Positions 19,253 to 33,046 of a DNA stretch of 33,202 nt are shown in pieces. The notes under the pieces were generated by a model. The model had not been told where the DNA came from, searched no databases, and saw nothing but the letters and a program-made list of their open reading frames with translations. This DNA is from Chloroflexota bacterium (lineage in GTDB: Bacteria > Chloroflexota > Dehalococcoidia > Lucifugimonadales > UBA826). The stretch spans positions 8,514 through 41,715 of the forward strand of contig PBDQ01000001.1 of assembly GCA_002717465.1 (NCBI GenBank), in the 5' to 3' direction. Position 1 is the stretch's first letter; each line of letters starts with the position of its first letter. The position numbers and the translations under genes were made by a program.

Positions 19253-21079
19253 TTATTTTGATATGAATGTCTTGAACCACAATTCAGTGTTAATCCATTG
19301 CCAAACATAGAATGAATTCTTTGGATTACCTTTTCTAAAGACTTGATAGGCATCAGATACTGCGTCAGTATCGAATAATCCTCGCTCTTGAAATGATTTG
19401 GAGCTAATAGTATCTAACACCCATTCTTGGAGTTCATTTTGTAGCCAAGGGGTTTGCGGTGTTACGATAGATTTTTTTGGTCTGGAAGTCCATGAGATTC
19501 CTGATATTGTCTCTGCATACTCTCTGAGTATAGATTTACCTTGATCGTTCTTAATTTTCAGATTGTTTGGTAGTTTAAAGGCGAATTCCACTAATCTATG
19601 GTCTAAAAACGGTACTCTTAACTCAATCCCGTTCGCCATTGATAATCTATCGTTCATTCGCAATACTCGTGGTAATTTGGTGTATCTCAAATCCCTATAT
19701 AAAATGTTTCTTAGATGATCGTCAAAAGGAGTTTCAAAAGATGGTGGTGAACTCGAAAGGGCCAATAGGTCAGGGCTTAATGATTTATGGTGCAAATGTT
19801 GGGTCCCATCGTGGCTTATGTTTAATGATTGATTTGCCATGATTTTTTTTATCGCCGGGACTCTAGATTTTATGGTTTGATTATTCTCTATTAGCGATTC
19901 CAAGTGTTTCCAGCCATGTTGGTTGATTATGTCTGCGTAATAGTAATTTAATGTGTACTCGTAACCGGCGAATAATTCATCTAATCCTTGTCCTTCAAGT
20001 GATACTATGCATCCATTTTGTCGTATGTTTTTATGGAGGTCAAAATATGCAAGGGTTGGAACTCCCCCAAAAGGAGCTTCTTCGTACCAGATAAGTTCTT
20101 CAGCTAATTCAGGAATGGATTCGTGATTGGTTACATGGCTTTTGGTATTAAAATTATTAAATTTTAAATCCTTAACTGCAAGGTATTCGTCGTACTGTTT
20201 ATTTTTGAATGAACTAGTAAAAGAGTTCATAGGGACGGTTGAATCTAATCGTTTATCTAATATGCAGGCTAACAAACTAGAATCTAGGCCTCCAGATAGA
20301 TTTACACTCATTGGTACATCACTTTGTAAATGGTCAAGAATAATTTCTTCTAGTAGAGATGATATGTAATCCAATGTATGGTTATAGGGATCTTCTTCAA
20401 ATTGGTTAGTTATACGAGGGAGATCCCAGTATTTTTTGGTATTAATATCACCTTTTGAGAATAGTAAATGAGAACCCGGTGCTAGTGAGTAAATATGTTT
20501 AAAGAAAGTTTCATCATTATGGTCCATATAACCATAGTTGAGATAATCTCCCCACGCTTCCCAATTGGGCTGTGGCTCAATCCCCGCTGTTAATATTGAT
20601 TTGATTTCTGACCCAAAGATTAATTTCCCATCGAGATGATAATAATAGAATGGTTTGATCCCTAGTCTATCCCGTGCACAAAAAAGTTGTTGTTTGTATT
20701 CGTCCCAAATTGCAAAGGCAAACATTCCTATTAATTTTTTCGTGCACTCAGTACCCCATCTTGTATACGCTGCTAGGATAACTTCCGTATCACTGTTTGA
20801 TTTAAAATTATATGTTCTTAAGTCGGACTTAAGGTCGAGATAGTTATAAATCTCTCCATTAAACACTATAGTGAGGTCACCTGTATTGTCTTGCATTGGA
20901 CAGTTCGCTTCGGGTGATAAATCTATGATACTAAGTCTATTATGACCCAATCCTACATATTGACTTTCGTTAGTGAAAATATTATTAAAGTCGGGTCCTC
21001 TGTGAGTTTGACAGGTTACCATGCCATCTAATTGTGATAGATGCCAGGTGTTCCCAATTATTCCTGAAATTCCACACAT
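19253..21079 (-). CDS. asnB: Asparagine synthase-like glutamine amidotransferase (AsnB family)
   Basis: 608 residues. MCGISGIIG exposes the catalytic Cys2 of the class II glutaminase domain, with HRGPD, LGHNRLSIIDLS, FNGEIYNY and NSDTEV intact. The synthetase domain holds the ATP pyrophosphatase loop SVNLSGGLDSSLLA near 258-270. AAGGA-like Shine-Dalgarno (GAAGGA) lies nine bases before the ATG. In surface-glycan loci such proteins (for example WbpS of Pseudomonas aeruginosa and WbtH of Francisella) are linked to conversion of uronic acids to uronamides. With a UDP-sugar dehydrogenase and 4-epimerase in the same operon, that role is more likely here than free asparagine synthesis. This is inference. 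Confidence 0.93.
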   Translation of the reverse strand: MCGISGIIGNTWHLSQLDGMVTCQTHRGPDFNNIFTNESQYVGLGHNRLSIIDLSPEANCPMQDNTGDLTIVFNGEIYNYLDLKSDLRTYNFKSNSDTEVILAAYTRWGTECTKKLIGMFAFAIWDEYKQQLFCARDRLGIKPFYYYHLDGKLIFGSEIKSILTAGIEPQPNWEAWGDYLNYGYMDHNDETFFKHIYSLAPGSHLLFSKGDINTKKYWDLPRITNQFEEDPYNHTLDYISSLLEEIILDHLQSDVPMSVNLSGGLDSSLLACILDKRLDSTVPMNSFTSSFKNKQYDEYLAVKDLKFNNFNTKSHVTNHESIPELAEELIWYEEAPFGGVPTLAYFDLHKNIRQNGCIVSLEGQGLDELFAGYEYTLNYYYADIINQHGWKHLESLIENNQTIKSRVPAIKKIMANQSLNISHDGTQHLHHKSLSPDLLALSSSPPSFETPFDDHLRNILYRDLRYTKLPRVLRMNDRLSMANGIELRVPFLDHRLVEFAFKLPNNLKIKNDQGKSILREYAETISGISWTSRPKKSIVTPQTPWLQNELQEWVLDTISSKSFQERGLFDTDAVSDAYQVFRKGNPKNSFYVWQWINTELWFKTFISK

Positions 21080-21081
21080 AA

Positions 21082-21564
21082 CTAGCTATCCTTCAAATTC
21101 AAAACGTAGTTCACAGCTTCTCTTACTGCTCCGTGACCACCATTTTTTAAGGTGGTTATGCCTGCATTGGATTGAATTTGAGGTTCAGCATCTGCTACTG
21201 CAAATGATAAACCCACGTTTTGAATTACTTGGAGGTCATTAAGATCGTCGCCAATATATGCCACATTATTCAATCCTATGTTCAATTCTGAACATAAAGT
21301 TTCTACTAGTGGTAATTTATTTGATACTCCGAGGAACACTTTGGATATTCCCATTTTGGCTGCACGTGCTCTAACTATATCCGAATCTTCCCCGGTGATG
21401 ATTGCTACGTGAATACCAGCATCTTGCAGTAATCTTAGCCCGAATGCATCTCTAGTGTTGAATTTTTTCATGTATTCACCATCTTTTGTGTAATACATTC
21501 CCCCATCTGTTAAGGTACCGTCAACATCTGTGATAAATAGCTTGATTGATGTTTTAGATATCAT
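21082..21564 (-). CDS. KdsC-type HAD phosphatase (Kdo-8-P / nonulosonate-9-P phosphatase-like)
   Basis: 160 residues, a C0-type HAD without cap, forming tetramers in the family. The nucleophile motif is DVDGTLTDG (Asp13, Asp15); ITGEDS and the C-terminal GDDLND (105-110) supply the other motifs, and FAVADAEP and NGGHGAVREAVNYVL are typical of KdsC. The family removes phosphate from Kdo-8-P or from sialic or KDN 9-phosphates. No Kdo synthesis gene is in the window, while two NeuB-like synthases are, so a 9-phosphate of a nonulosonic acid is the more likely substrate. The start overlaps the preceding gene by 11 nt. Confidence 0.88.
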   Translation of the reverse strand: MISKTSIKLFITDVDGTLTDGGMYYTKDGEYMKKFNTRDAFGLRLLQDAGIHVAIITGEDSDIVRARAAKMGISKVFLGVSNKLPLVETLCSELNIGLNNVAYIGDDLNDLQVIQNVGLSFAVADAEPQIQSNAGITTLKNGGHGAVREAVNYVLNLKDS

Positions 21565-22330
21565 TTGTAGAAAGAGGATATATGTGGCTTAGTTTTGTAA
21601 TTGGATTGTAGGTGATTCGATTGTGAGGCAATAGTTTTTTCAAGGCTGTTAAGGTATGTATTCGTTGATCCAAAAATGCTTCAATTGTTTCATTGCCTGA
21701 TGAAATTAGGTTTATTATGTCTGCATTAAAGCATTTTGGGTAATTCAAATCAGCAAAATATTTCCTGTCTGTTGGGCCATCAATGAACATGAAATCATAC
21801 GGTGCAGGAGGTATCTTCGAATAAGATGAACCTAAGTGCCCATCATAAGAGGTTTCAACCCTTTCTGAATGGATGAAGGTCACATGTTTGTTTAGGTTAT
21901 CAGGGAATATCGACTTGATTTGCTCATAATAAAAAGGATCTTCTTCCATAGTAACTAGATGACCTTGATAAGATTTGTCGTTTTGATGATTTATTTCGAT
22001 TGAGTAGGCAATCACAGCGGTTGTAACACCTGAACCGCATTCCAAAATATGTTTTGGATTTGTTCGATTGATAAAGTTGTAAAGATGCAAATAATCGCTG
22101 AATTCAGCACCAGTAGATTGACTTTTGGCAAGCATAACATTGATGATTTCATATAATTGTGGATGTTTGTGTTTCAATGTGATTTTACAGCTGTATTCAT
22201 TCCATTTGCGTATGTAATAAAGTGGATTGATCCCAATAGGCCTGGCAGTGTAATAGTAGTATATTTTCAGATTGAATAGACGTGCAGATACTGAATCTGT
22301 AAATCGGGTAAATATTTTGGTAATAAGCAT
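21554..22330 (-). CDS. Class I SAM-dependent methyltransferase-like protein
   Basis: 258 residues. HILECGSGVTTAVIAY at about 113-128 fits motif I of a Rossmann-fold methyltransferase, followed by LVTMEEDPFYYEQI (acidic residue at the end of strand 2) and YDFMFIDGP (motif post-II). A basic hydrophobic N-terminus (LFNLKIYYYYTARPIG) may pack on the membrane. It could O- or N-methylate a sugar of the glycan; acceptor unknown. The fold assignment is fair, but methyl transfer is not proven by the sequence. It lies six bases after the GT-B-like gene. Confidence 0.6.
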   Translation of the reverse strand: MLITKIFTRFTDSVSARLFNLKIYYYYTARPIGINPLYYIRKWNEYSCKITLKHKHPQLYEIINVMLAKSQSTGAEFSDYLHLYNFINRTNPKHILECGSGVTTAVIAYSIEINHQNDKSYQGHLVTMEEDPFYYEQIKSIFPDNLNKHVTFIHSERVETSYDGHLGSSYSKIPPAPYDFMFIDGPTDRKYFADLNYPKCFNADIINLISSGNETIEAFLDQRIHTLTALKKLLPHNRITYNPITKLSHIYPLSTNDI

Positions 22331-22336
22331 TGTCTA

Positions 22337-23803
22337 TTAAATATTGATGGCAAGAAACTGTATTAAATCAGCTGCATATTGGGAGGACGTACCAATGTTG
22401 GTATGACATTCTGAAGCGACCAATCGAGATCGTGCTGCTTTCTTGGCTTCAGGTGATTGCAACTCTTGCTTGATAGAGTGTATGAATTCTGGTGCTGAGT
22501 ATACAACTTTAGTCGCTCCGGAATTTATGACTCTTTGGTTGTGCGTTTGCCTTTCGTCTATTCTTATGTCGTACCTTGCAATTTTGGCATTGACCTTTTT
22601 GAGATCAGGATCTTCGAAACATACGTTTATGGCCGGCACATCAAATATGGAAGCTTCTAAATTTAGAGTGGAAAACATATTTATACAAAGTTTACTGTGT
22701 TTAAGTAGTGAACCAAGTTTAAGTATCTCGTTATCTGACATGAAGTAGTTTAGATCACTATCAGTGATTTCTGGGTAATCTATCATAATGGTGTCAGGAC
22801 CGTACTCTTCTTGTAATTCATTCCAATCTTCCCCAAAATGTTCGCCGTCTGATGTCCTATTGAATCTAAAATAAATCGGATGGAGTCTGCATATTATCAG
22901 GTAATCTTGGAGATCAGAGTCATTATTAAAAAGCTCACACAGTAGTCTTGCTATATAAAGATTAGAAGAAAAATTGTTAGGAGATTTACTCCCAAACAAG
23001 ATTATTTTTTTGTTTGGTTCAATGTTTAATTTTGAATAAAGCCTATCTTTATCCCACAGTTCTGTATGGATCTTGGAATAGGCATCAAAATGAGGTACGC
23101 CTCCAATAGAGATTTTGTCCTGAGGTATGTAATGTAGAGTCATTAAATCTTGGAGCATCTGAGGAGACCAGACTATTATGTGGTCTGATAAGTTAGTGCC
23201 AAATCCTTTGGATGAGGTGTTATCCCAGCTTAACACGTAGGTTAGGATCTTTAATCCTCTAGATTTGGCCTCTCTCATGACGTATGCATCATTATCAAAA
23301 GTTCCAATACTAGTTGTAATTAATATGTCGGGTTTGTATCGATCAAAGAATATACTATTGCCATGAGTTAACGTAAATTTATTTTCTAGTCTAATAATTG
23401 CGAACATGATTTTATGATGGAATTTCGCTATCCTCACTACTGTTCTTACAATGTATAAGAAAATTTTTGTATTAGTATTTTTAGATAATAAAGCGTTTTC
23501 TTTTTCTATTTTTAAATGGTCCAGAGTGGTCTGAGATTTTTGAGCGAGAAATCTAGTGAATTGAAGTATTCTTGAGATAATTTGAGATTTCTTTACTTCA
23601 TACAACTTCGTTTCTAGGGGGTGCACAGGTATATCAGTATATCCCTTGTCTGTTAGATACTTATTAATGGTATTAGGCCCAGAAGTTAGTATTATGGGCG
23701 ATATTGAGCGTTTTATAAGTTCGTCGAGAAGTTTTGATTGTAGTAATAATCGGGCCCCGAATCCTTGCTCTATCAATAGAGCTGCTGTCTTTACGTTTTT
23801 CAC
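22337..23803 (-). CDS. Predicted GT-B-fold surface-carbohydrate transferase
   Basis: 488 residues with a GTG start. I do not recognise an exact family. The layout resembles capsule/CDP-glycerol-type GT-B transferases. An N-terminal Rossmann part runs LLIEQGFGARLLLQSKLLDEL, and DILITTSIGTFDNDAYVMREAKSRG and TYVLSWDNTSSKGFG are followed by IVWSPQMLQDLM. A second domain starts at KKIILFGSKSPN and includes CRLHPIYFRF and LCINMFSTLNLEASIFDVPAINV, the place where the donor nucleotide would bind. It probably transfers a sugar or nonulosonate, as it sits between the two NeuB genes and the phosphatase. No signal peptide or membrane helix is seen. Confidence 0.62.
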   Translation of the reverse strand: MKNVKTAALLIEQGFGARLLLQSKLLDELIKRSISPIILTSGPNTINKYLTDKGYTDIPVHPLETKLYEVKKSQIISRILQFTRFLAQKSQTTLDHLKIEKENALLSKNTNTKIFLYIVRTVVRIAKFHHKIMFAIIRLENKFTLTHGNSIFFDRYKPDILITTSIGTFDNDAYVMREAKSRGLKILTYVLSWDNTSSKGFGTNLSDHIIVWSPQMLQDLMTLHYIPQDKISIGGVPHFDAYSKIHTELWDKDRLYSKLNIEPNKKIILFGSKSPNNFSSNLYIARLLCELFNNDSDLQDYLIICRLHPIYFRFNRTSDGEHFGEDWNELQEEYGPDTIMIDYPEITDSDLNYFMSDNEILKLGSLLKHSKLCINMFSTLNLEASIFDVPAINVCFEDPDLKKVNAKIARYDIRIDERQTHNQRVINSGATKVVYSAPEFIHSIKQELQSPEAKKAARSRLVASECHTNIGTSSQYAADLIQFLAINI

Positions 23804-23808
23804 AGAAA

Positions 23809-24711
23809 CTATGGGATATATTTTAGTTTTTTTCTGTTGGAGACTTCTATGTCCATAACTTCTTTAGTTTTGAATGTTAGTGACTCAGCAACGATTTTGG
23901 TGCTATCTCTGACAAATTTCAGTTCTTCCGGATCTAACGATGCTGAGTGGTCAGTCCCTTTCCAATTTTTATCTAGAGTAAAGTGTCTCTCGATATAGTC
24001 TGCTCCTAATACAAAGGCCGCTCCGTCTAGTTCAACGCCATCATAGTGTGATGAAAATCCTATGCCTTTGATAGAATTTGAATATTGCTCTACTAATCGT
24101 TTTATGCCTAACAAACATATATCTTTAGGAGGCACTGGATAACCTGATGTACAGTGGTAAAGGACAAGGTCTGAAAGGCGTTTATGTTTGTTGAAGATAT
24201 CTATTAGCCGTTTTTCTTCCTCCGTTGTTGTCATGCCTAAGGAAACGTGTATTTCTCCGTTATAGTTCTTACAGAGGTAATTAACTAATTCCAAATGAGT
24301 GTTTGTTCCAGAACCAATTTTTATGAGGGGAGGATTTATTTCAGTTATCTGTATTGCTGATGTCATGTCCCATACGGAAGAACTGTATCCTATACCAATT
24401 GTCTTACAGTAATTGAGAAGTTCGTGGTGTTGTTCTTGGGTGAATTCCAGGAATTCTCTATGAGCTCCATAAGTTTCCCCGTATGAATTAGCGGGGACGG
24501 GGTGAGGAGACTGATATTGTGTTTCGCTAAGCAACTCTTTGGGATTGCGTTTTTGAAATTTTGCGTATTGTACATCACATTGCTCTTTTGCGATTTTGAT
24601 CATGGATTTAGCTCTTTCTAAATCACCCATATGGTTGCAGCCTATTTCTGCTATGATCGTTGGTGCAGGCCGTGTGACAAAGTTTTGAAGGTCATAGGGT
24701 AGTTGAATCAT
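23809..24711 (-). CDS. neuB: NeuB-family nonulosonate synthase lacking the SAF domain
   Basis: 300 residues. TIIAEIGCNHMGDLERAKSM opens a TIM barrel of the NeuB family, with FQKRNPKELL, the substrate loop HPVPANSYGETYGAHREFLEF, SSSVWDMTSA, IKIGSGTNTH, HVSLGMTT, CTSGYPVPP and IERHFTLD-WKGTDHSASLDP. The protein stops at IEVSNRKKLKYIP, so the C-terminal antifreeze-like SAF domain found in the second copy (25449-26489) is absent. It condenses PEP with a mannosamine- or mannose-type sugar, free or 6-phosphorylated. Barrel motifs are complete, so loss of SAF looks like a subfamily trait rather than decay. The ATG abuts the stop of the preceding cytidylyltransferase. Confidence 0.88.
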   Translation of the reverse strand: MIQLPYDLQNFVTRPAPTIIAEIGCNHMGDLERAKSMIKIAKEQCDVQYAKFQKRNPKELLSETQYQSPHPVPANSYGETYGAHREFLEFTQEQHHELLNYCKTIGIGYSSSVWDMTSAIQITEINPPLIKIGSGTNTHLELVNYLCKNYNGEIHVSLGMTTTEEEKRLIDIFNKHKRLSDLVLYHCTSGYPVPPKDICLLGIKRLVEQYSNSIKGIGFSSHYDGVELDGAAFVLGADYIERHFTLDKNWKGTDHSASLDPEELKFVRDSTKIVAESLTFKTKEVMDIEVSNRKKLKYIP

Positions 24712-25443
24712 TTAATTATAGTCCTCTGTTAGATGTTTATCAGCTAAAAATCTAGCAAATTCAAGATCCTGCCAGTCATCTATATCCATGACAATCACAT
24801 CTTTTAATATGTGAGATAAGATATGTTGACCTGTCATAGATCGTTTTTTTAGTATTGTGTCTGGCCTAATAACGTCCACATATCCGAATGATTGGAATGT
24901 TTCTGGCAAAGACTGTCTCGGTAAATTATATGGCTCAGAAATGTCAGATTTGATTAAAGGACCCAGATACTGTTGATCCTCATCCACGACCCACATTTTA
25001 TATGGGTGTACAGTAGAAGGAGTGACTACCCTTAAGGCATCAGCTTTGGGGTTTTTGATCATTTTTTGAATGCAGCTTTCGATTACCAAAGATTTTCTGA
25101 AGGGGTTTGTGGGTCTTAACTGGACTATTAAATCAGGTATGTAATTATCATTTTCAATGAGCCATTCTAGGCAATGTATGAATACGGGGAGGTCTGGAGT
25201 ATCATCTTCAGCCAAATAGGAAGGCCTAATAAAAGGAATTTCAGCTCCATATTTTGAACTGACGTCAGCGATCTCAGTTGAATCGGTGCTCACTATTAGT
25301 CTGTTAATTGAAGGAGTATTTTTCCCAACGTTTATGGTATGCGCTATGAGTGGCTTGCCATGTAAGTCAATGATATTTTTGTTAGGAATCGATTTTGAAC
25401 CACCACGGGCAGGAATTATACCTAATATTTGAGGTGTTTTCAT
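24712..25443 (-). CDS. neuA: CMP-nonulosonate cytidylyltransferase (NeuA-like), copy 2
   Basis: 243 residues. ILGIIPARGGSKSIPNKNIIDLHGKP is the CTP-binding signature, with VSTDSTEIA, IPFIRPSYLAEDDTPDLPVF, LRPTNPFRKS and a C-terminal MDIDDWQDLEFA. It differs from copy 1 in the substrate region (PYKMWVVDED, PRQSLPETFQ), so the two probably activate different sugars or evolved with different NeuB partners. It is sandwiched between the two neuB genes, five bases after one and abutting the other, so its partner cannot be told from position alone. Confidence 0.9.
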   Translation of the reverse strand: MKTPQILGIIPARGGSKSIPNKNIIDLHGKPLIAHTINVGKNTPSINRLIVSTDSTEIADVSSKYGAEIPFIRPSYLAEDDTPDLPVFIHCLEWLIENDNYIPDLIVQLRPTNPFRKSLVIESCIQKMIKNPKADALRVVTPSTVHPYKMWVVDEDQQYLGPLIKSDISEPYNLPRQSLPETFQSFGYVDVIRPDTILKKRSMTGQHILSHILKDVIVMDIDDWQDLEFARFLADKHLTEDYN

Positions 25444-25448
25444 GATTT

Positions 25449-26489
25449 CTAGTCTATGTCCTCATAAGATAATTGCCGGTCTGTTTCAATATTTTTATTT
25501 AGCTGTCTGCCTAATAAGGACATAACATTTTCAGGAGCTAGCCCGGTTCCTGGTTTCTTGAATGCCAAATCCTCTGCGGTCAATATGTGACCACTCTCTA
25601 GATTGTGGTTCGCAACTATACTTTTGGCAAATAAAGCTTTCAATGGTTTGAGCTCTTCCGAGATATCATTTTTGTTTACAGGATTATTTTGTATTGTCTC
25701 TATGTATCGAATACCTTCTACTAAATATGCCAATTCGGATATTGTGATTGATGCGGTTACATCGGGACCAAACATGTCTTTTGAGAATGTGACGTGTGTC
25801 TCTAACATATCTATGCCTAATGTTGCTGCAGCGAGCCCGGTGAATACTGTTCCTGAATGGTCTGATAATCCCACAGGGATTCCGAATGTATTCCTGTAAG
25901 CTTCAATATTATTTAACCCAATTTTTTCGGGAGGGCACGGGTATGCAGTAGTGGTTTGAAATAGTAATAGTGGCACCTCATATTGTGACAGGTAGGTTAA
26001 AGTGTTTTGGATTTCTTCCATATCGCTCATTCCTGTGGATACTAAAATAGGTTTACCAGTTAAAGCGATTTTTTGGAGCATAGGAAGATTAGTAATTTCA
26101 CCTGATGCGATTTTCCATGCTTCCATACCGAGATTGTCTAGTAATTCTACTGCTTGTTCCGAAAAAGGAGAACTTAAAAAAACGATACCTACTTCTCGGC
26201 AATGATCGTATAACCCTTCCCACTGTGAAGGGGTGAATTCCATCCGTCGCCAATACTCATATCTAGTATTATCTTGCTTGCTGAAATTTATTCTGAATTG
26301 CTCTAGAGGTGTGCTTTCAGCTGATGCTATATGAGTTTGGAATTTGATAGCATTAGCTCCAGCTTTTGCTACAGCGTCTATATAAGCATGGGCCGTTCCT
26401 AAACTACCATCGTGACCTTGTCCAATCTCTGCAATTATGAAACAGCCATCAGAGCCGATAGTATGGTTATGTATTTTGAATGAATTCAT
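25449..26489 (-). CDS. neuB: NeuB-family nonulosonate synthase with SAF domain
   Basis: About 346 residues from ATG 26489, chosen over a GTG at 26510 because NeuB proteins begin a few residues before FKIHNHTIG; neither start has a good Shine-Dalgarno. The TIM barrel has FIIAEIGQGHDGSLGTAHAYID, IKFQTHIASAESTP, FLSSPFSEQAVELL, WKIASGEITNLP, STGMSD, QTTTAYPCPPE, GLSDHSG and THVTFSKDMFGPD. The SAF domain (about 285-346) carries FAKSIVANHNLESGHIL and FKKPGTGL, intact. It makes a nonulosonic acid from PEP and an N-acetylmannosamine-like sugar, likely supplied by the hydrolysing epimerase at 18066-19220. Confidence 0.93.
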   Translation of the reverse strand: MNSFKIHNHTIGSDGCFIIAEIGQGHDGSLGTAHAYIDAVAKAGANAIKFQTHIASAESTPLEQFRINFSKQDNTRYEYWRRMEFTPSQWEGLYDHCREVGIVFLSSPFSEQAVELLDNLGMEAWKIASGEITNLPMLQKIALTGKPILVSTGMSDMEEIQNTLTYLSQYEVPLLLFQTTTAYPCPPEKIGLNNIEAYRNTFGIPVGLSDHSGTVFTGLAAATLGIDMLETHVTFSKDMFGPDVTASITISELAYLVEGIRYIETIQNNPVNKNDISEELKPLKALFAKSIVANHNLESGHILTAEDLAFKKPGTGLAPENVMSLLGRQLNKNIETDRQLSYEDID

Positions 26490-26528
26490 GGAATTAGTAC
26501 TGCAAAACACTGATTCGATTAGATTCTT

Positions 26529-28217
26529 TTATAAGTCTACAGTAATTTCAGCTAGGTTTCCTGATGAAACCTCATAAATTTTGTTGAATTTAATTGCGGG
26601 GAGAGTGTTGTGAGAGGAAGCAATTAATATGGAACTCGAATCGAGGTGGTTATGTATATTAGCGAGGATTTGAGTTTCTATATCATGGTCCATATGAGTA
26701 GTCGCTTCGTCTAGAATTATTAAAGAAGGATTCCTAGAGAAAAGCCTAGATAATAATATTCGTTGGCGTTGCCCTAAAGAGAAATTGTTAGCATCATCCC
26801 CTAATGTTTGGCTGAGCCAATGTTTTTCAGTTATCAGTTCAGTAAGGCAGGCGTTATTGAGCATGGATTTGATCTCTTCTTGGGTGAGTGTTCCATTGGG
26901 ATCAAGGTAATCTCTGATGGGTATGTTTGGTACATACATATCGTTGGCTGCGTAGAATATGTGATTAGCGACTGACTTAAAAGATAGGGAGTCCGTAGTT
27001 TTAATATCATTGTTGTAGGAAATAGTTCCTTTATCAGGGGTATAGTATCCAGATAATAGTTTGAGCAATGTGGATTTACCTTGTCCAGAAGGTCCCTGTA
27101 TCAAAATTTTATCTCCTTCGCAAACATCTGTAGTGATCGAATTTATGATTGGGGTTTGATCGTAAGAAAATGAAACATTGTGAATTTGAATATTCTCGAT
27201 TCTATTAAATTCAAATAATTCTGTTCTTCCATTGCTAGTCATGGTGTCCAAAGTTGATAGGAGTGTTGTTGTAGATTCATAGTTCTCTTTAATGTTTACC
27301 CAGCTTACTTGACATTCGTTGGCATAACTGCGTAACCGGTTGAATATAAGTATCAACAATAACAGTGTTTCTAGGTTGACTGTGCCTAGTAATATCGCGA
27401 TAAAGGCAATAATTCCAAGGGATAGTAAGCTGAATGCATCAGACAATATTGTAACTGTGTGAGTTGTTACTATTTTGTTTACTTTCCATTCCCAGTCTAG
27501 ATGTAAAACTTTTTTTATTTTTCCTGAAGTTACTTTTTCTAAACCATCGAATTTGACCCATATGAAACTTCGGATATTCTGAGTTAGTTCCTTAAGCAAA
27601 TCATCTGTAACTTGGATTTTTTCTGTCCCAATCACACCAATAATTCTAAAATTACGATAATTGATGATTACTGAAACAACCGCTAGTATCATAGCTGCTA
27701 TTGTGATTTGCCAAGAGCTTACTATAGCAGTCGCCGTTAAAAGTATCACAGCAAATATACTAGACACTAACCCAATCAACGAAATGTAATAAACTGATGC
27801 ACTTTCTGACCTGCGTATGACCATGTTAGTTATTTCTTCCGTATTCTGATGTAACTGTGAATTGGCTGGCGTTTCAAAATATGATTCCGTTACCTTAGCT
27901 GCTAAAGATTCATATATGTTGTATCTAGTAGTAGTCAATATTTGTGCTTTAATACGTTTCAGGAATGCCCATGCCAATATTGTTACTAGTGTTAGTCCAA
28001 ATAAAACGCTTATTACTTGCAGGTGTGTTAGGCCAGGGTATTCAAATAAATTTAGTAATTGAGTTTTTATAGTGTCAATCTGAGATTTACTGAGTAAAAG
28101 ATAAATAAGGGCCAATATAGCGATTTCAAGTGGCGGTACTATTGTGTTTAAGATTAGGATGTAAACGACATGCTTTCGATTAGCCCAGGTTATATTTTTA
28201 ATGAATTGAAATATCAA
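26529..28217 (-). CDS. Fused ABC exporter, candidate lipid-linked glycan flippase (PglK/MsbA-like)
   Basis: 562 residues with a TTG start. The N-terminal 310 residues form a type IV exporter membrane domain with about six helices; the ATPase follows. Walker A is GPSGQGKST (about 374-382), Walker B is SLIILDEAT (about 493-501), and the switch His is in IASSHN. The signature reads FSLGQRQR (about 476) instead of LSGGQ, and the D-loop is THMD rather than SALD. Half-size exporters of this kind form homodimers and in PglK-type systems flip undecaprenyl-linked oligosaccharide. No Wzx is found in the window, so this may be the export step. TTG is the only start near the upstream stop. Confidence 0.82.
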   Translation of the reverse strand: MIFQFIKNITWANRKHVVYILILNTIVPPLEIAILALIYLLLSKSQIDTIKTQLLNLFEYPGLTHLQVISVLFGLTLVTILAWAFLKRIKAQILTTTRYNIYESLAAKVTESYFETPANSQLHQNTEEITNMVIRRSESASVYYISLIGLVSSIFAVILLTATAIVSSWQITIAAMILAVVSVIINYRNFRIIGVIGTEKIQVTDDLLKELTQNIRSFIWVKFDGLEKVTSGKIKKVLHLDWEWKVNKIVTTHTVTILSDAFSLLSLGIIAFIAILLGTVNLETLLLLILIFNRLRSYANECQVSWVNIKENYESTTTLLSTLDTMTSNGRTELFEFNRIENIQIHNVSFSYDQTPIINSITTDVCEGDKILIQGPSGQGKSTLLKLLSGYYTPDKGTISYNNDIKTTDSLSFKSVANHIFYAANDMYVPNIPIRDYLDPNGTLTQEEIKSMLNNACLTELITEKHWLSQTLGDDANNFSLGQRQRILLSRLFSRNPSLIILDEATTHMDHDIETQILANIHNHLDSSSILIASSHNTLPAIKFNKIYEVSSGNLAEITVDL

Positions 28218-28233
28218 ATGAATCTTTCTTTTA

Positions 28234-29208
28234 TCAATTATCCACTGATATGTCGGTAAGCCATTCTTTATTTTTTTGATACCATTCGATTGTATTGTTT
28301 AATCCTTGTTCAAAGGAAAGTTGAGGCTCCCAATTTAGAAGGTTTTTGGCTTTTTCAATGTTAGCAAATGTTGAACTTACGTCAGCGTTATTTTTGGGTA
28401 AATATTCTCTAGAGGCGTTTTTGTTTAATTTGGATTCTATGCAAGAAATCACATGGTTGATAGACACTGGGCTGTGCGATCCTAAATTGAAAATTTCAAA
28501 ACCGATTGGTTTTAAGCTTGCTATAGTGCCTCTTGCAACGTCATCAACGTGAGTAAAATCTCTAGTTTGGGTTCCATCTCCAAACACGGTTATGGTTTTA
28601 TTTTCATCAATCAGTTTTATAAATTTAAAAATACTCATATCAGGCCTGCCGAATTGACCGTAGACAGTGAAATATCTGTTAATACTAATATCGATATCAT
28701 ATTGGTAATGATATGAATAACAAAGAAGCTCAGCGGATTTTTTGGATACTGAGTATGGAGTAAGAGGTAAGTCCGTTGGATTAGCTTCATCAATAAGTCT
28801 GGAATTTGTTTCTCCATACAGACTAGATGTAGAAGCTAATACCATTTTTTTTATTTTAGCGTCCCTGCAGAATTCAAGGATATTGAGAGTTCCAAGGATG
28901 TTTGTCTCTAAGTATATTCCAGGAGATTCCAGGGACTGGCGCACTCCTGCTCTCGCTGCTAAATGTATTACTGCATCAAATTGCACATCAGGGATCTCTT
29001 TTATTAAGGAATTGTTACATATATCCATGTTCAGTAATTTGAATTCTTGGAAAGTGGACAATTCCTTATTTCTGATCTGTTTGATAGTAGGATCGTATGC
29101 ATCATTTAAAGAATCTATACCTATCACTGTATGTCCTGATTCTAGCAAGATTTTGGATATTTGTGTGCCAATAAAACCCACAGCGCCTGTAACTAGATAT
29201 TTAGCCAC
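28234..29208 (-). CDS. UDP-glucuronate/UDP-GlcNAc 4-epimerase-like SDR
   Basis: 324 residues, extended SDR with a GTG start in a TAGTG overlap with the dehydrogenase gene. TGAVGFIG at 7-14 is the NAD loop. HLAARAGVRQSLESPGIYLETNI is the typical UDP-uronate 4-epimerase segment, TSSLYG and Y-S-V-S-K (YSVSKKSAELLCY) give the catalytic residues, and RYFTVYGQFGRPDMSIFKF and FGDGTQTRDFTHVDDVA close the substrate pocket. The order dehydrogenase then epimerase, with direct overlap, points to joint production of a UDP-galacturonate or UDP-GalNAcA-type donor. Which sugar is used is not resolved. Confidence 0.87.
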   Translation of the reverse strand: MAKYLVTGAVGFIGTQISKILLESGHTVIGIDSLNDAYDPTIKQIRNKELSTFQEFKLLNMDICNNSLIKEIPDVQFDAVIHLAARAGVRQSLESPGIYLETNILGTLNILEFCRDAKIKKMVLASTSSLYGETNSRLIDEANPTDLPLTPYSVSKKSAELLCYSYHYQYDIDISINRYFTVYGQFGRPDMSIFKFIKLIDENKTITVFGDGTQTRDFTHVDDVARGTIASLKPIGFEIFNLGSHSPVSINHVISCIESKLNKNASREYLPKNNADVSSTFANIEKAKNLLNWEPQLSFEQGLNNTIEWYQKNKEWLTDISVDN

Positions 29209-30536
29209 TACAATTTCTCTACTTTATCAATTCGGGTACGGAGATTTCTGGTTGCATTTCTAGTGTCTAAAATGGAATCTGAATGTTGGACTATGAATTC
29301 CCAGTCATAATCTGAATGGTCGGTGGCGATGACTGCGCAGTCAAATTGTGACAAGGTTTTTTTATTTAAAGGTATACTAGTCATATTAAAATGCTCATAT
29401 GAGATCTGCTCAATCAAAGGGTCGTTGTATGATATGTTGGCTCCCTGTTCGGTTAGAATATCTATTATGTCTAGAGAAGGAGACTCTCTGAAATCTGGTA
29501 CATCTGGTTTGTATGCTATTCCTAATATTAAGATGTTTGAACCGTTTAAAGGCATTTTTTTCCTGTTAAGAATCTTCTGTACTTTTTCAACTACATAATT
29601 GGGCATTGAGGTGTTGATTTCGGTTGCTAATTGAATAAATCTAGCATTGTAGTTTAGTGTTTTTAATTTCCAGGCTAAAAATTGAGGATCTACAGGAATA
29701 CAATGCCCACCTAGTCCTGGTCCTGGATAAAAAGGCGTGAACCCGAAAGGTTTGGTGGCTGCGGCATTTATAACTTCCCAAACATCTATATCAAGTCTGT
29801 CGCACATTATGGCTATTTCATTGACTAAACCTATATTAGTAGCTCTATAAGTGTTTTCCAGCAATTTAACCATTTCTGCCACTCTAGTTGAGGATACAGG
29901 AATTACAGTGTTAATGGCAGATTCATAAAGTAGCTTTGCTATTTCTGAACACTCGTATGTAATACCTCCAATGACTTTAGGAGTATCTGTCACGGTCCAA
30001 ATTTCATTGTTAGGATCTATTCTTTCGGGTGAAAAGGCTACATGTATATTTTTGCCTACGACAAAATCACCATGACCAACATTTTCCATGAGAGGGACAA
30101 TTAGCTCCTCTGTTGTCCCTGGATAGGTTGTACTTTCTAAGATTATTATCATATCGTCATGGATATACTGTGAAATAGATTGAGCTGAGCTAATTATGAA
30201 TGACATGTCAGGGTCTTTAGTTTTGCTGACAGGAGTAGGTACACATATAATTACACAATCTGAATCAACCAATGATGAATAATGGGTAGTAGCAGTTAAG
30301 GTTCCAGATTTGGATTCTTTAGGAGAAAGCTGGCGTAAGCTCTCCGAAGTTATATCACCAATGTAGGATTCACCTGAGTTGATTTTAAGTACTTTGTTAT
30401 TGTCATTGTCTACGATATTTACTGAGAACCCGTTACTCGCGAAAGCTATCGCTAGAGGCAGACCTACATATCCTGCTCCTATTACTGAAATCTTTGCCGT
30501 TTTGGTGCTTATTTTGGTTTTTAGATTAGAGTTCAT
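29208..30536 (-). CDS. UDP-N-acetylhexosamine/UDP-glucose 6-dehydrogenase (WbpA/TviB/WecC family)
   Basis: About 442 residues from ATG 30536, chosen over ATG 30572 because GAGG lies five bases upstream of the former and nothing upstream of the latter. VIGAGYVGLPLA begins the NAD domain; CVPTP, ESTTYPGTTEE, FSPERIDPN, KLLENTYRATNIGLVNE and PGPGLGGHCIPVDP with the catalytic Cys near 274 follow, then LGIAYKPDVPDFRESP. It oxidises C6 of a UDP-hexose twice to the uronic acid. The ESTTYPGTTEE and GPGLGGHCIPVDP segments resemble UDP-GlcNAc or UDP-ManNAc dehydrogenases more than UDP-glucose dehydrogenases. Confidence 0.93.
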   Translation of the reverse strand: MNSNLKTKISTKTAKISVIGAGYVGLPLAIAFASNGFSVNIVDNDNNKVLKINSGESYIGDITSESLRQLSPKESKSGTLTATTHYSSLVDSDCVIICVPTPVSKTKDPDMSFIISSAQSISQYIHDDMIIILESTTYPGTTEELIVPLMENVGHGDFVVGKNIHVAFSPERIDPNNEIWTVTDTPKVIGGITYECSEIAKLLYESAINTVIPVSSTRVAEMVKLLENTYRATNIGLVNEIAIMCDRLDIDVWEVINAAATKPFGFTPFYPGPGLGGHCIPVDPQFLAWKLKTLNYNARFIQLATEINTSMPNYVVEKVQKILNRKKMPLNGSNILILGIAYKPDVPDFRESPSLDIIDILTEQGANISYNDPLIEQISYEHFNMTSIPLNKKTLSQFDCAVIATDHSDYDWEFIVQHSDSILDTRNATRNLRTRIDKVEKL

Positions 30537-30543
30537 GTTATCC

Positions 30544-30654
30544 TCAGACAGATTTTGGCAAGGCTCCGCCATATGCTTGCTGAGAGCTACTGTTATTTAA
30601 CGATTTCGGAGCTGACGCTTCCACGATAATCGGTTTGTCATCTGGTATATGCAT
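30544..30654 (-). CDS. Possible small ORF, 36 residues
   Basis: A 36-codon ORF whose ATG directly abuts the TAA of the antiterminator gene and whose TGA overlaps the Shine-Dalgarno (GAGG) of the dehydrogenase gene. The peptide starts MHIPDDKPIIVEASAPKS, is polar with no membrane segment, and I recognise no family. It has no Shine-Dalgarno of its own, so only reinitiation or coupling would translate it. It fills the single long gap (118 nt) after the two regulators. The space could equally be a non-coding leader holding a recognition site for the NusG-like protein. Coding status is uncertain. Confidence 0.3.
   Translation of the reverse strand: MHIPDDKPIIVEASAPKSLNNSSSQQAYGGALPKSV
30557..30592 (-). 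promoter_or_regulatory. Possible ops/JUMPstart-like antiterminator recruitment element
   Basis: Between the NusG/RfaH-like gene and the first biosynthetic gene the coding-sense strand reads CAGTAGCTCT, then 12 bases further on GGCGGAGCCTTGCC. Enterobacterial JUMPstart has CAGT...CT followed by the ops core GGCGGTAGCGTG. The match is imperfect (one base missing, one changed in the core) and may be chance, but the position, right after the antiterminator gene and before the long structural operon, is where such an element would be expected. Confidence 0.25.
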
Positions 30655-31233
30655 TTATGCTGCTATAAGTTGTTTTATGGGGCGGTTTCGTCCCCTTGTT
30701 CTCCTCCTGTTATGTAACTTGTGATTTTTCTTGGATGGTTCATATGAGGTTAAGTTAAACCAATTAACTTCGGCTTTAATTTCTTTTCCCATGAAATCAA
30801 TCAATATACGGACTCTGGTTTTATCGGACATAGAGTGTTGAATTACAGTACCTATTTTCGACAAACCATGCACCTCTAAAAGTACTTTATCTCCGGCAGT
30901 ATAAGTTTTCCATACTCCTCCCAAATTATTTATATCACTGACTTTATGGCGCAATTTTGAGATAAAGTCATCTTCAATAATGGCTGGAAGGCTATCTTGG
31001 AATAAACATCCGTAGATTCCTTTGATTTTACTGATTAAATGGGAATGTTTTTCAAAATTGTCAGATTGGATAAATATGTATCCAGAAAATAATGGTTTGT
31101 ACGATGTAACAGCTTGTTCGTTAGTGTGTTTTATTACAGGTAAGTAGTATGATAATCCTATGTTAGAAAGTTCGGATGTTACGTTAGAGGAAATATTATT
31201 CTGGATCCGGAATACGTACCATGATCTATTCAT
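30655..31233 (-). CDS. NusG/RfaH/UpxY-like transcription antiterminator
   Basis: 192 residues. The N-terminal NGN domain has SWYVFRIQNNISSNVTSEL, YYLPVIKH and PLFSGYIFIQ. A linker leads to a KOW-type domain (about 108-160) starting YTAGDKVLLEVHGLSKIGTV, and the end is a basic tail (RRRTRGRNRP). These are marks of specialised NusG paralogues that let RNA polymerase read through long surface-polysaccharide operons. It is the second gene of the locus and overlaps the regulator upstream by one base (TGATG). It probably acts on this operon, since about 28 genes follow without an obvious second promoter. Confidence 0.88.
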   Translation of the reverse strand: MNRSWYVFRIQNNISSNVTSELSNIGLSYYLPVIKHTNEQAVTSYKPLFSGYIFIQSDNFEKHSHLISKIKGIYGCLFQDSLPAIIEDDFISKLRHKVSDINNLGGVWKTYTAGDKVLLEVHGLSKIGTVIQHSMSDKTRVRILIDFMGKEIKAEVNWFNLTSYEPSKKNHKLHNRRRTRGRNRPIKQLIAA

Positions 31234-31871
31234 CAGACGGCCTCCACTGGCTTGCCATCCAATGTGAATGCAACGATTTTATTCTTGGGAATAGATTTCC
31301 CAAGAGAGTCAAAAGCCCCTGCATCTGACCCCATATCTGCAAAGAATATTTTGTCGTAGGCTTGGAGAGCTTTTGGGGATAATTCTCTCACTTGCATTCC
31401 CAGGAATTTTTGACCGGGGTAAGCAAATAATCCAAATGAGTCGATATCTTCAACTCCATGATTCTTCAATGCGAGATATACTAATTCCGCGAAATCACTT
31501 GTTCCTATAATTGCTACGCGAGATTCCATATGAAGTGATGTGAGAGCCATATCAGTGCGTATGGTTTGTTTTATAACATTGTAGTGAGAAATGGTCCTAG
31601 ATATATATTTTTGAGTGAGGTTTATTTTGTGAGTAAAACCTTCAGGAGTAAGGTTGTATAGCCATCTTTTCCATCCAGCTTGGGAAGCTTTAATATATCC
31701 TTTTTGTGCTAGATTTTTTATAAGAACGTTAGTTAGCCCCAGTGCGATTCCAATGTTTTTGGATAATTGCCTCTGGGTTATCTCTGGATTCGATTCGATT
31801 TGTTCGAGAGCTAACATTTCTCTCTCGCTTACATTGTCGAACGAATCGTTCTGTTCATGAACGGAACGCAT
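31233..31871 (-). CDS. Winged-helix transcriptional regulator with Rossmann-like sensor domain
   Basis: 212 residues. Residues about 17-65 form a winged helix (EREMLALEQIESNPEITQRQ, then LTNVLIKNLAQKGYIKASQ). A second region from about 115 starts SRVAIIGTSDFAELVYLALK, a Rossmann strand-loop-helix suggesting nucleotide or sugar-nucleotide binding, and ends NKIVAFTLDGKPVEAV. The pair with a NusG-like gene is a recurring head of exopolysaccharide operons. The ATG at 31871 falls on the predicted transcription start of the promoter just upstream, so the mRNA would be leaderless. Met19 (31817), preceded by GAGAGAGAA, is an alternative start that would leave a 54-nt leader containing the palindromes at 31839-31868. 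Confidence 0.78.
   Translation of the reverse strand: MRSVHEQNDSFDNVSEREMLALEQIESNPEITQRQLSKNIGIALGLTNVLIKNLAQKGYIKASQAGWKRWLYNLTPEGFTHKINLTQKYISRTISHYNVIKQTIRTDMALTSLHMESRVAIIGTSDFAELVYLALKNHGVEDIDSFGLFAYPGQKFLGMQVRELSPKALQAYDKIFFADMGSDAGAFDSLGKSIPKNKIVAFTLDGKPVEAV
31839..31868. promoter_or_regulatory. Cluster of GAAC/GTTC palindromes at the start of the locus
   Basis: GAACGA-A-TCGTTC (31839-31851) is a 13-bp inverted repeat. It overlaps a nearly perfect 22-bp palindrome centred on GTTCATGAAC (31847-31868; a single mismatched pair). Both share CGTTC half sites. They lie just after the predicted transcription start, either in the first codons of the winged-helix regulator or in its leader if Met19 is the true start. 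They could be an operator for autoregulation or an RNA hairpin in the initial transcript. Confidence 0.5.
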
Positions 31872-31908: not shown

Positions 31909-32008
31909 CATTTTGGTATTAATTGAGGCTGATATATTTGATTTGTTAGATATATGCTTGAAACTAAGATAAAATGCAGGGAATGCAATAAACTATAGGA
32001 TGGATACT

Positions 32009-33046
32009 ATGTCTGAAGTTAGATTAACTGAATTATCCCACTGCGCTGGTTGAGCTGCAAAAATTAATCAAGAAGATCTGGTTCAGATCTTGAGCAAACT
32101 TCCTAAAATAAGTCATCCAAACTTGATTGTGGGTTCTGAAACTGGAGATGATGCTGCTGTTTACCAATTAGATAAAGACACAGGATTAGTGTTTACTGTA
32201 GATTTTTTCCCTCCTATAACTGATGATCCTTATCAATATGGAGCCATATCTGCAGCTAATTCTCTTAGTGACGTTTATGCTATGGGAGGCAAGCCTTTAC
32301 TGGCGTTAAACGTGGTTGGATTCCCAGCAAACTTAGATAATGAAATATTGGCAGATATTTTGAAAGGCGGATACGATAAAGCCATAGAATCTGGATGTCT
32401 TTTGGCTGGGGGGCATACAGTAGATGATCCAGAGCCAAAATACGGATTGGCAGTTGTAGGGATTGTTCCTCCAAATGATACTGTGTCAAACAAGGGAGCC
32501 AAACCAGGAGATTCATTGGTGTTAACAAAGGCCATAGGTACTGGCATTATTACTACTGCGGGTAAACAAATGAAAGCTCCTGATTCCGTGATAGACGACG
32601 CGGTCACAATAATGAGCACTTTGAATAAAAATGCCAGTGAAGTGATGATGGAAGTAGGGGTTAATTCTTGTACAGATATAACCGGCTTTGGCTTGATGGG
32701 GCATTTGATGTCAATGATGAAGGCTAGTTCTTGCACTGCTAACATAAATTCAAATGATATTCCGGTTATAGAAGGCACTTGGGATCTACTGAGAGAAGGT
32801 ATTTTGCCAGGTGGAACGATGCGGAACAAAGACAGTGTTGAGTCCAGTATTGAATGGCATGACGACTTGAGTGAAGAATCAAAATTATTATTATGTGACG
32901 CGCAAACTTCTGGAGGATTACTTATTTCGGTTTCAGAAGATAAAACCGATGAATTATTGAATAAACTCATAGAAAATGGAGTGAAATCTTCTGCCCTAAT
33001 TGGTACTATCAAAGCTCAAGAATCAGCGCTTATTGAAGTGAAATAA
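32009..33046 (+). CDS. selD: Selenide, water dikinase (SelD), selenocysteine-containing
   Basis: About 345 residues with an in-frame TGA at 32051-32053 read as selenocysteine (Sec15). The motif SHCAG-Sec-AAK corresponds to the catalytic Cys17/Lys20 region of E. coli SelD (HGAGCGCK), with Lys18 conserved. Downstream come GDDAAVYQL, DFFPPITDDPYQYGAI, NSLSDVYAMGGKP, GGHTVDDPEPKYGLAV and the C-terminal DAQTSGGLL, so the AIRS-type ATP-binding fold is complete. It makes selenophosphate from selenide and ATP. ATG 32009 is preferred (AGGA eight bases upstream) over ATG 32000; a caller that treats TGA as stop would truncate the gene to a TTG at 32090. Confidence 0.92.
32051..32053 (+). other. selD: Selenocysteine UGA codon in selD
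   Basis: TGA lies in frame between the upstream codons for LTELSHCAG and the downstream AAKINQEDL, exactly at the position of the catalytic Cys/Sec of SelD. Many other genes in the window end in TGA, so global reassignment of UGA is excluded. Confidence 0.9.
32073..32091 (+). promoter_or_regulatory. Bacterial SECIS hairpin
   Basis: AAGATCTG - GTT - CAGATCTT forms a perfect 8-bp stem with a 3-base loop, or a 7-bp stem with loop GGUUC, which is close to the GGUCU loop that SelB binds in E. coli fdhF. It starts 19 bases after the UGA, and the loop lies about 26 bases after it, within the usual bacterial SECIS spacing. Confidence 0.82.

Follow-up and report, generated by a model that had tools for sequence, protein, structure and literature searches.

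The window, a stretch of 33,202 nucleotides on contig C26 of a Chloroflexota MAG (G000), carries near its right end selD, a gene for selenophosphate synthetase whose features are collected in Table 1. Read from its ATG, the selD frame contains a single in-frame TGA before the gene ends at 33046, and a scan of the window gave only this one informative single-TGA read-through frame, the other match being an ordinary stop. To the left of selD, a surface polysaccharide cluster (19253-31871) encodes two NeuB-type synthases, a cytidylyltransferase, a UDP-sugar dehydrogenase, an epimerase, and an asparagine synthase. At its head are a NusG-like protein and a winged-helix regulator whose gene diverges from selD.

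Table 1. Features of the selD locus, in window coordinates.
Feature	Position	Strand	Basis
selD, selenophosphate synthetase	32009..33046	+	345 codons and a stop codon, with Sec15; TIGR00476 and alignment with E. coli SelD
Shine-Dalgarno-like AGGA	31997..32000	+	8 nt upstream of ATG 32009; sequence inspection
Cys12 codon	32042..32044	+	CxxU motif, 3 residues ahead of Sec15; translation
In-frame UGA, predicted Sec15	32051..32053	+	codon 15; E. coli SelD has its catalytic Cys17 at this site in the alignment
SECIS stem 5' arm, AAGAUCUG	32073..32080	+	hairpin search; covariation
SECIS apical loop GUU	32081..32083	+	27 nt past UGA; bSECIS model (PMC13188914)
SECIS stem 3' arm, CAGAUCUU	32084..32091	+	hairpin search; covariation

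Translated through the TGA, the protein matched TIGR00476 at 386 bits (cut-off 125), with residues 5-312 corresponding to positions 1-310 of the 311 in the model, and aligned over residues 3-337 with its homolog E. coli SelD (3u0o; E=4.8e-75), in which the catalytic residue at the equivalent place, Cys17, is required for activity (PMC3956282). These alignments bear out the sequence-only reading, which had placed the UGA at the catalytic Cys/Sec position of an otherwise normal SelD in the same frame. That reading also anticipated an annotated start at TTG 32090 and loss of the active site; translation with table 11 indeed yields only a 318-aa ORF from this codon, and gene callers of the standard type are expected to start selD there and so to lose the active site. 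Judged by sequence comparison, the continuity of SelD across the TGA is by itself decisive protein evidence, and the gene almost certainly encodes a single-domain bacterial SelD that is itself a selenoprotein. SelD is listed among the prokaryotic selenoproteins (PMC13188914), and Sec-containing SelD is a long-known family of which the window's gene is a further member, from marine Chloroflexota.

Downstream of the UGA, AAGAUCUG and CAGAUCUU form a perfect 8-bp stem closed by the loop GUU, or alternatively a 7-bp stem with the loop GGUUC. The bSECIS model describes a loop of 3-9 nt with a G within its first two positions, a stem of 4-16 bp, a distance of 16-37 nt from the UGA, and a minimum free energy of -7.5 kcal/mol or lower (PMC13188914). 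The window hairpin fits this model in loop length, stem length, loop G, and spacing (GUU, 8 bp, 27 nt), and its energy is borderline against the limit, at -8.4 kcal/mol for 59 nt and -7.2 kcal/mol for the bare stem. When the peptide was recoded synonymously 20,000 times, an 8-bp Watson-Crick stem arose in 255 of the recodings; among the 7,246 coding 60-mers of the window, 38 contain one. A hairpin energy as good as the window's was reached by 0 of 200 synonymous recodings. An Rfam search of the window returned no match above the gathering scores. The folding energy of the window sequence alone is unremarkable against shuffles (z -0.22), and the case for the hairpin therefore rests on comparison.

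Hairpins in Sec-SelD genes (n=116) were stronger than those in their own recodings (mean z -2.0), whereas those in Cys-SelD genes (n=11) were not (mean z -0.3). Covariation was examined in a gap-free alignment of 22 distinct members of the surrounding clade, in which 90.9% of stem cells pair, compared with at most 52% when the pairing partners are slid by one base. Thirteen cells are changed on both sides of the stem versus 5.1 in shuffles, and 0 of 500 shuffles reached 13, counts which are not probabilities and which come from sequences that share ancestry. One stem pair is G-C in some sequences and A-U in others, with both arms changing only synonymously (GAG..CTG or GAA..TTG), and it never appears as an A-C mismatch (Fisher p=2.5e-4, with sequences that are not independent). 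Base composition alone is insufficient to account for this switch because three sequences (L021, L057, and L079) use the GAA..TTG form despite G+C-rich codons elsewhere in the region. The perfect 8-bp hairpin with a GGUUC-like loop at the right distance, as proposed from the sequence alone, is thus upheld by both its bSECIS geometry and the covariation of its stem.

For Sec-SelD genes, the best hairpins with 7 bp or more fall into groups with the loop at about 15, 20, 27, or 33 nt past the UGA, of which the group at 15 nt may be partly due to chance pairing within G+C-rich codons. Loop distance is mainly 27 nt in the window's clade and mainly 33 nt in the MAG's own family. Given these differing registers, the recoding signal appears to have shifted along the codons without displacement of the UGA, and the positions provide testable material on how recoding signals move within coding sequence. 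In some sequences (L027 and L081), two SECIS registers are possible.

The TGA is present in 123 of the 134 SelD loci in which the site is covered, and a Cys codon in 11. In a class-wide sample of 148 genomes, SelD was found in 99, and 97 of 102 SelD matches carry the TGA; of the five that do not, one is without its N-terminus. Sec-SelD is, on these alignments, the rule in this Chloroflexota class. The nearest relative, SP188 (Chloroflexi bacterium, 90% identity), has an identical TGA and hairpin, and across an order conservation extends to the codons that precede and flank the UGA (CAG-U-A/S-K).

These comparisons bear on two other explanations of the TGA. It might be a Cys codon (TGC/TGT) of an ordinary Cys-SelD gene that was miscalled during sequencing or assembly, and the MAG has an estimated contamination of 8.35% and ambiguous bases in other contigs. 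The sequence-only reading had pointed to relatives as the place where such an error would come to light, and there the TGA is retained, both in SP188, which is independent, and across the class; because relatives carry the TGA, we treat sequencing error as excluded for practical purposes. The UGA might instead be a true stop, with either a functional shorter product made from the TTG or a gene in decay. An ORF of the corresponding length does exist, but its product would lack the catalytic residue and the next conserved Lys, and neither the conservation of codons ahead of the UGA nor the maintenance of the hairpin in relatives agrees with termination at this site, which we consider extremely improbable.

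The selenocysteine machinery accompanies the gene. In the MAG, selA is found on C14, selB on C25, and a tRNA-Sec with anticodon UCA on C1. The search was repeated in G060 and G061 (SP188/UBA2588), which match the contig, because C26 seems to come from another organism, and both contain selA, selB, and tRNA-Sec(UCA). The absence of selA, selB, and selC, which would have spoken against a selenoprotein, is therefore not the situation either in the MAG or in the SP188/UBA2588 lineage. A further alternative is insertion of a non-Sec amino acid at the UGA, through near-cognate read-through or a reassigned code; non-Sec read-through has a precedent in animal SPS1-UGA genes (cited part of PMC4561486). 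For the window's gene this alternative is very improbable, given the Sec machinery and the covariation of the hairpin, and a general code reassignment is disfavored by the lack of any second informative single-TGA read-through frame in the window.

With UGA read as Sec, we infer the following course of insertion and catalysis. Translation would start at ATG 32009, and at codon 15 SelB with Sec-tRNA-Sec, bound to the downstream SECIS hairpin, would insert Sec in place of termination. Sec15 would lie in a mobile N-terminal loop and handle selenide during ATP-dependent selenophosphate synthesis. Cys12 may have a redox role; the sequence-only reading suggested that it could form a selenenylsulfide with Sec15, a putative reversible bond for which the CxxU motif is what the sequence shows. 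The selenophosphate would feed the production of more Sec-tRNA by SelA, and SelD would therefore depend on its own product. As Sec-SelD is usual in the class, much of the selenium use there would likewise hinge on this self-dependence.

The predicted protein closely resembles known bacterial Sec-SelD/SPS proteins, sharing with those in the cited part of Mariotti et al. (2015, PMC4561486) the Sec position, the SelD architecture, a SECIS just downstream, and the Sec machinery; the second thiol lies at +2 there and at -3 (CxxU) in the window, and otherwise nothing essential differs. CxxU SelDs are known from the Global Ocean Sampling data, where they make up about 5.6% of single-domain Sec-SelDs (Zhang and Gladyshev, 2008, PMC2398784). 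They are likewise marine, single-domain Sec-SelDs with Cys at -3, but their source organisms are not assigned to Chloroflexota in the part of that paper cited here. The same part describes NADH dehydrogenase-SelD fusions, which also have a Cys at -3 of the catalytic residue (CxxC) but differ from the window's unfused SelD by their N-terminal fusion and by Cys in place of Sec. E. coli SelD has Cys for Sec, a second Cys at +2 rather than -3, and no recoding.

The active-site motif of the window's SelD is C-A-G-Sec-A-A-K, and the cysteines around this site were surveyed in 127 distinct sequences (116 Sec-SelD and 11 Cys-SelD), a sample biased to relatives of the query. Among the Sec-SelDs, 75 have a Cys at -3 only, 25 at +2 only, and 16 at neither position, and all 11 Cys-SelDs have the Cys at +2; in none of the 127 do the two occur together. 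CxxU is the rule among SelDs of the window's order and occurs in SelDs of SAR202-type Chloroflexota, Armatimonadota, and some myxobacteria, with UxC in another group. On a tree of SelDs built with the motif masked, the cysteine states change at least 10 times. This either/or pattern is consistent with a resolving thiol that could sit on either side of Sec. A more specific reading of the sequences, which we put forward tentatively and would not favor as it stands, is that a partner thiol on one side or the other (UxC or CxxU), and never on both, might mark a functional Se-S pair, with the SECIS having shifted in parallel along the codons downstream of a fixed UGA. The cited part of PMC2398784 contains no report of the either/or cysteines, and neither these nor the different SECIS registers (loop at about 20, 27, or 33 nt) are described in the portions of the literature cited here. 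The pattern offers testable material on the role of the second thiol of SelD.

The whole of contig C26 (window 1-33202) is probably mis-binned in its MAG, as judged from matches of both its ends to SP188/UBA2588. The cupin protein of the contig shows 95% and 91% identity to SP188/UBA2588, and selD with its neighbor has 87% nucleotide identity to SP188; the SelA and SelB of G000 reach only 40-49% identity to their counterparts in this lineage. A second Sec-SelD in G000 (L047 9433-10431; G000:C14:96929-97933) is 58% identical to that of the window, contains a TGA of its own and a hairpin of 9 bp with the loop 33 nt from the UGA, and groups with the MAG's own family. The two SelDs were considered as a paralog pair; the SP188/UBA2588 matches favor mis-binning of C26 instead, and the presence of only one SelD in SP188 counts against such a pair. 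The polysaccharide cluster has 66-68% nucleotide identity to its positional counterpart in SP188, lower than at the selD end. In another genome, near-identical selD copies (L066 and L018) lie close to either end of a single 3.4-Mb contig (G018:C1), and this duplication is probably an untrimmed terminal overlap.
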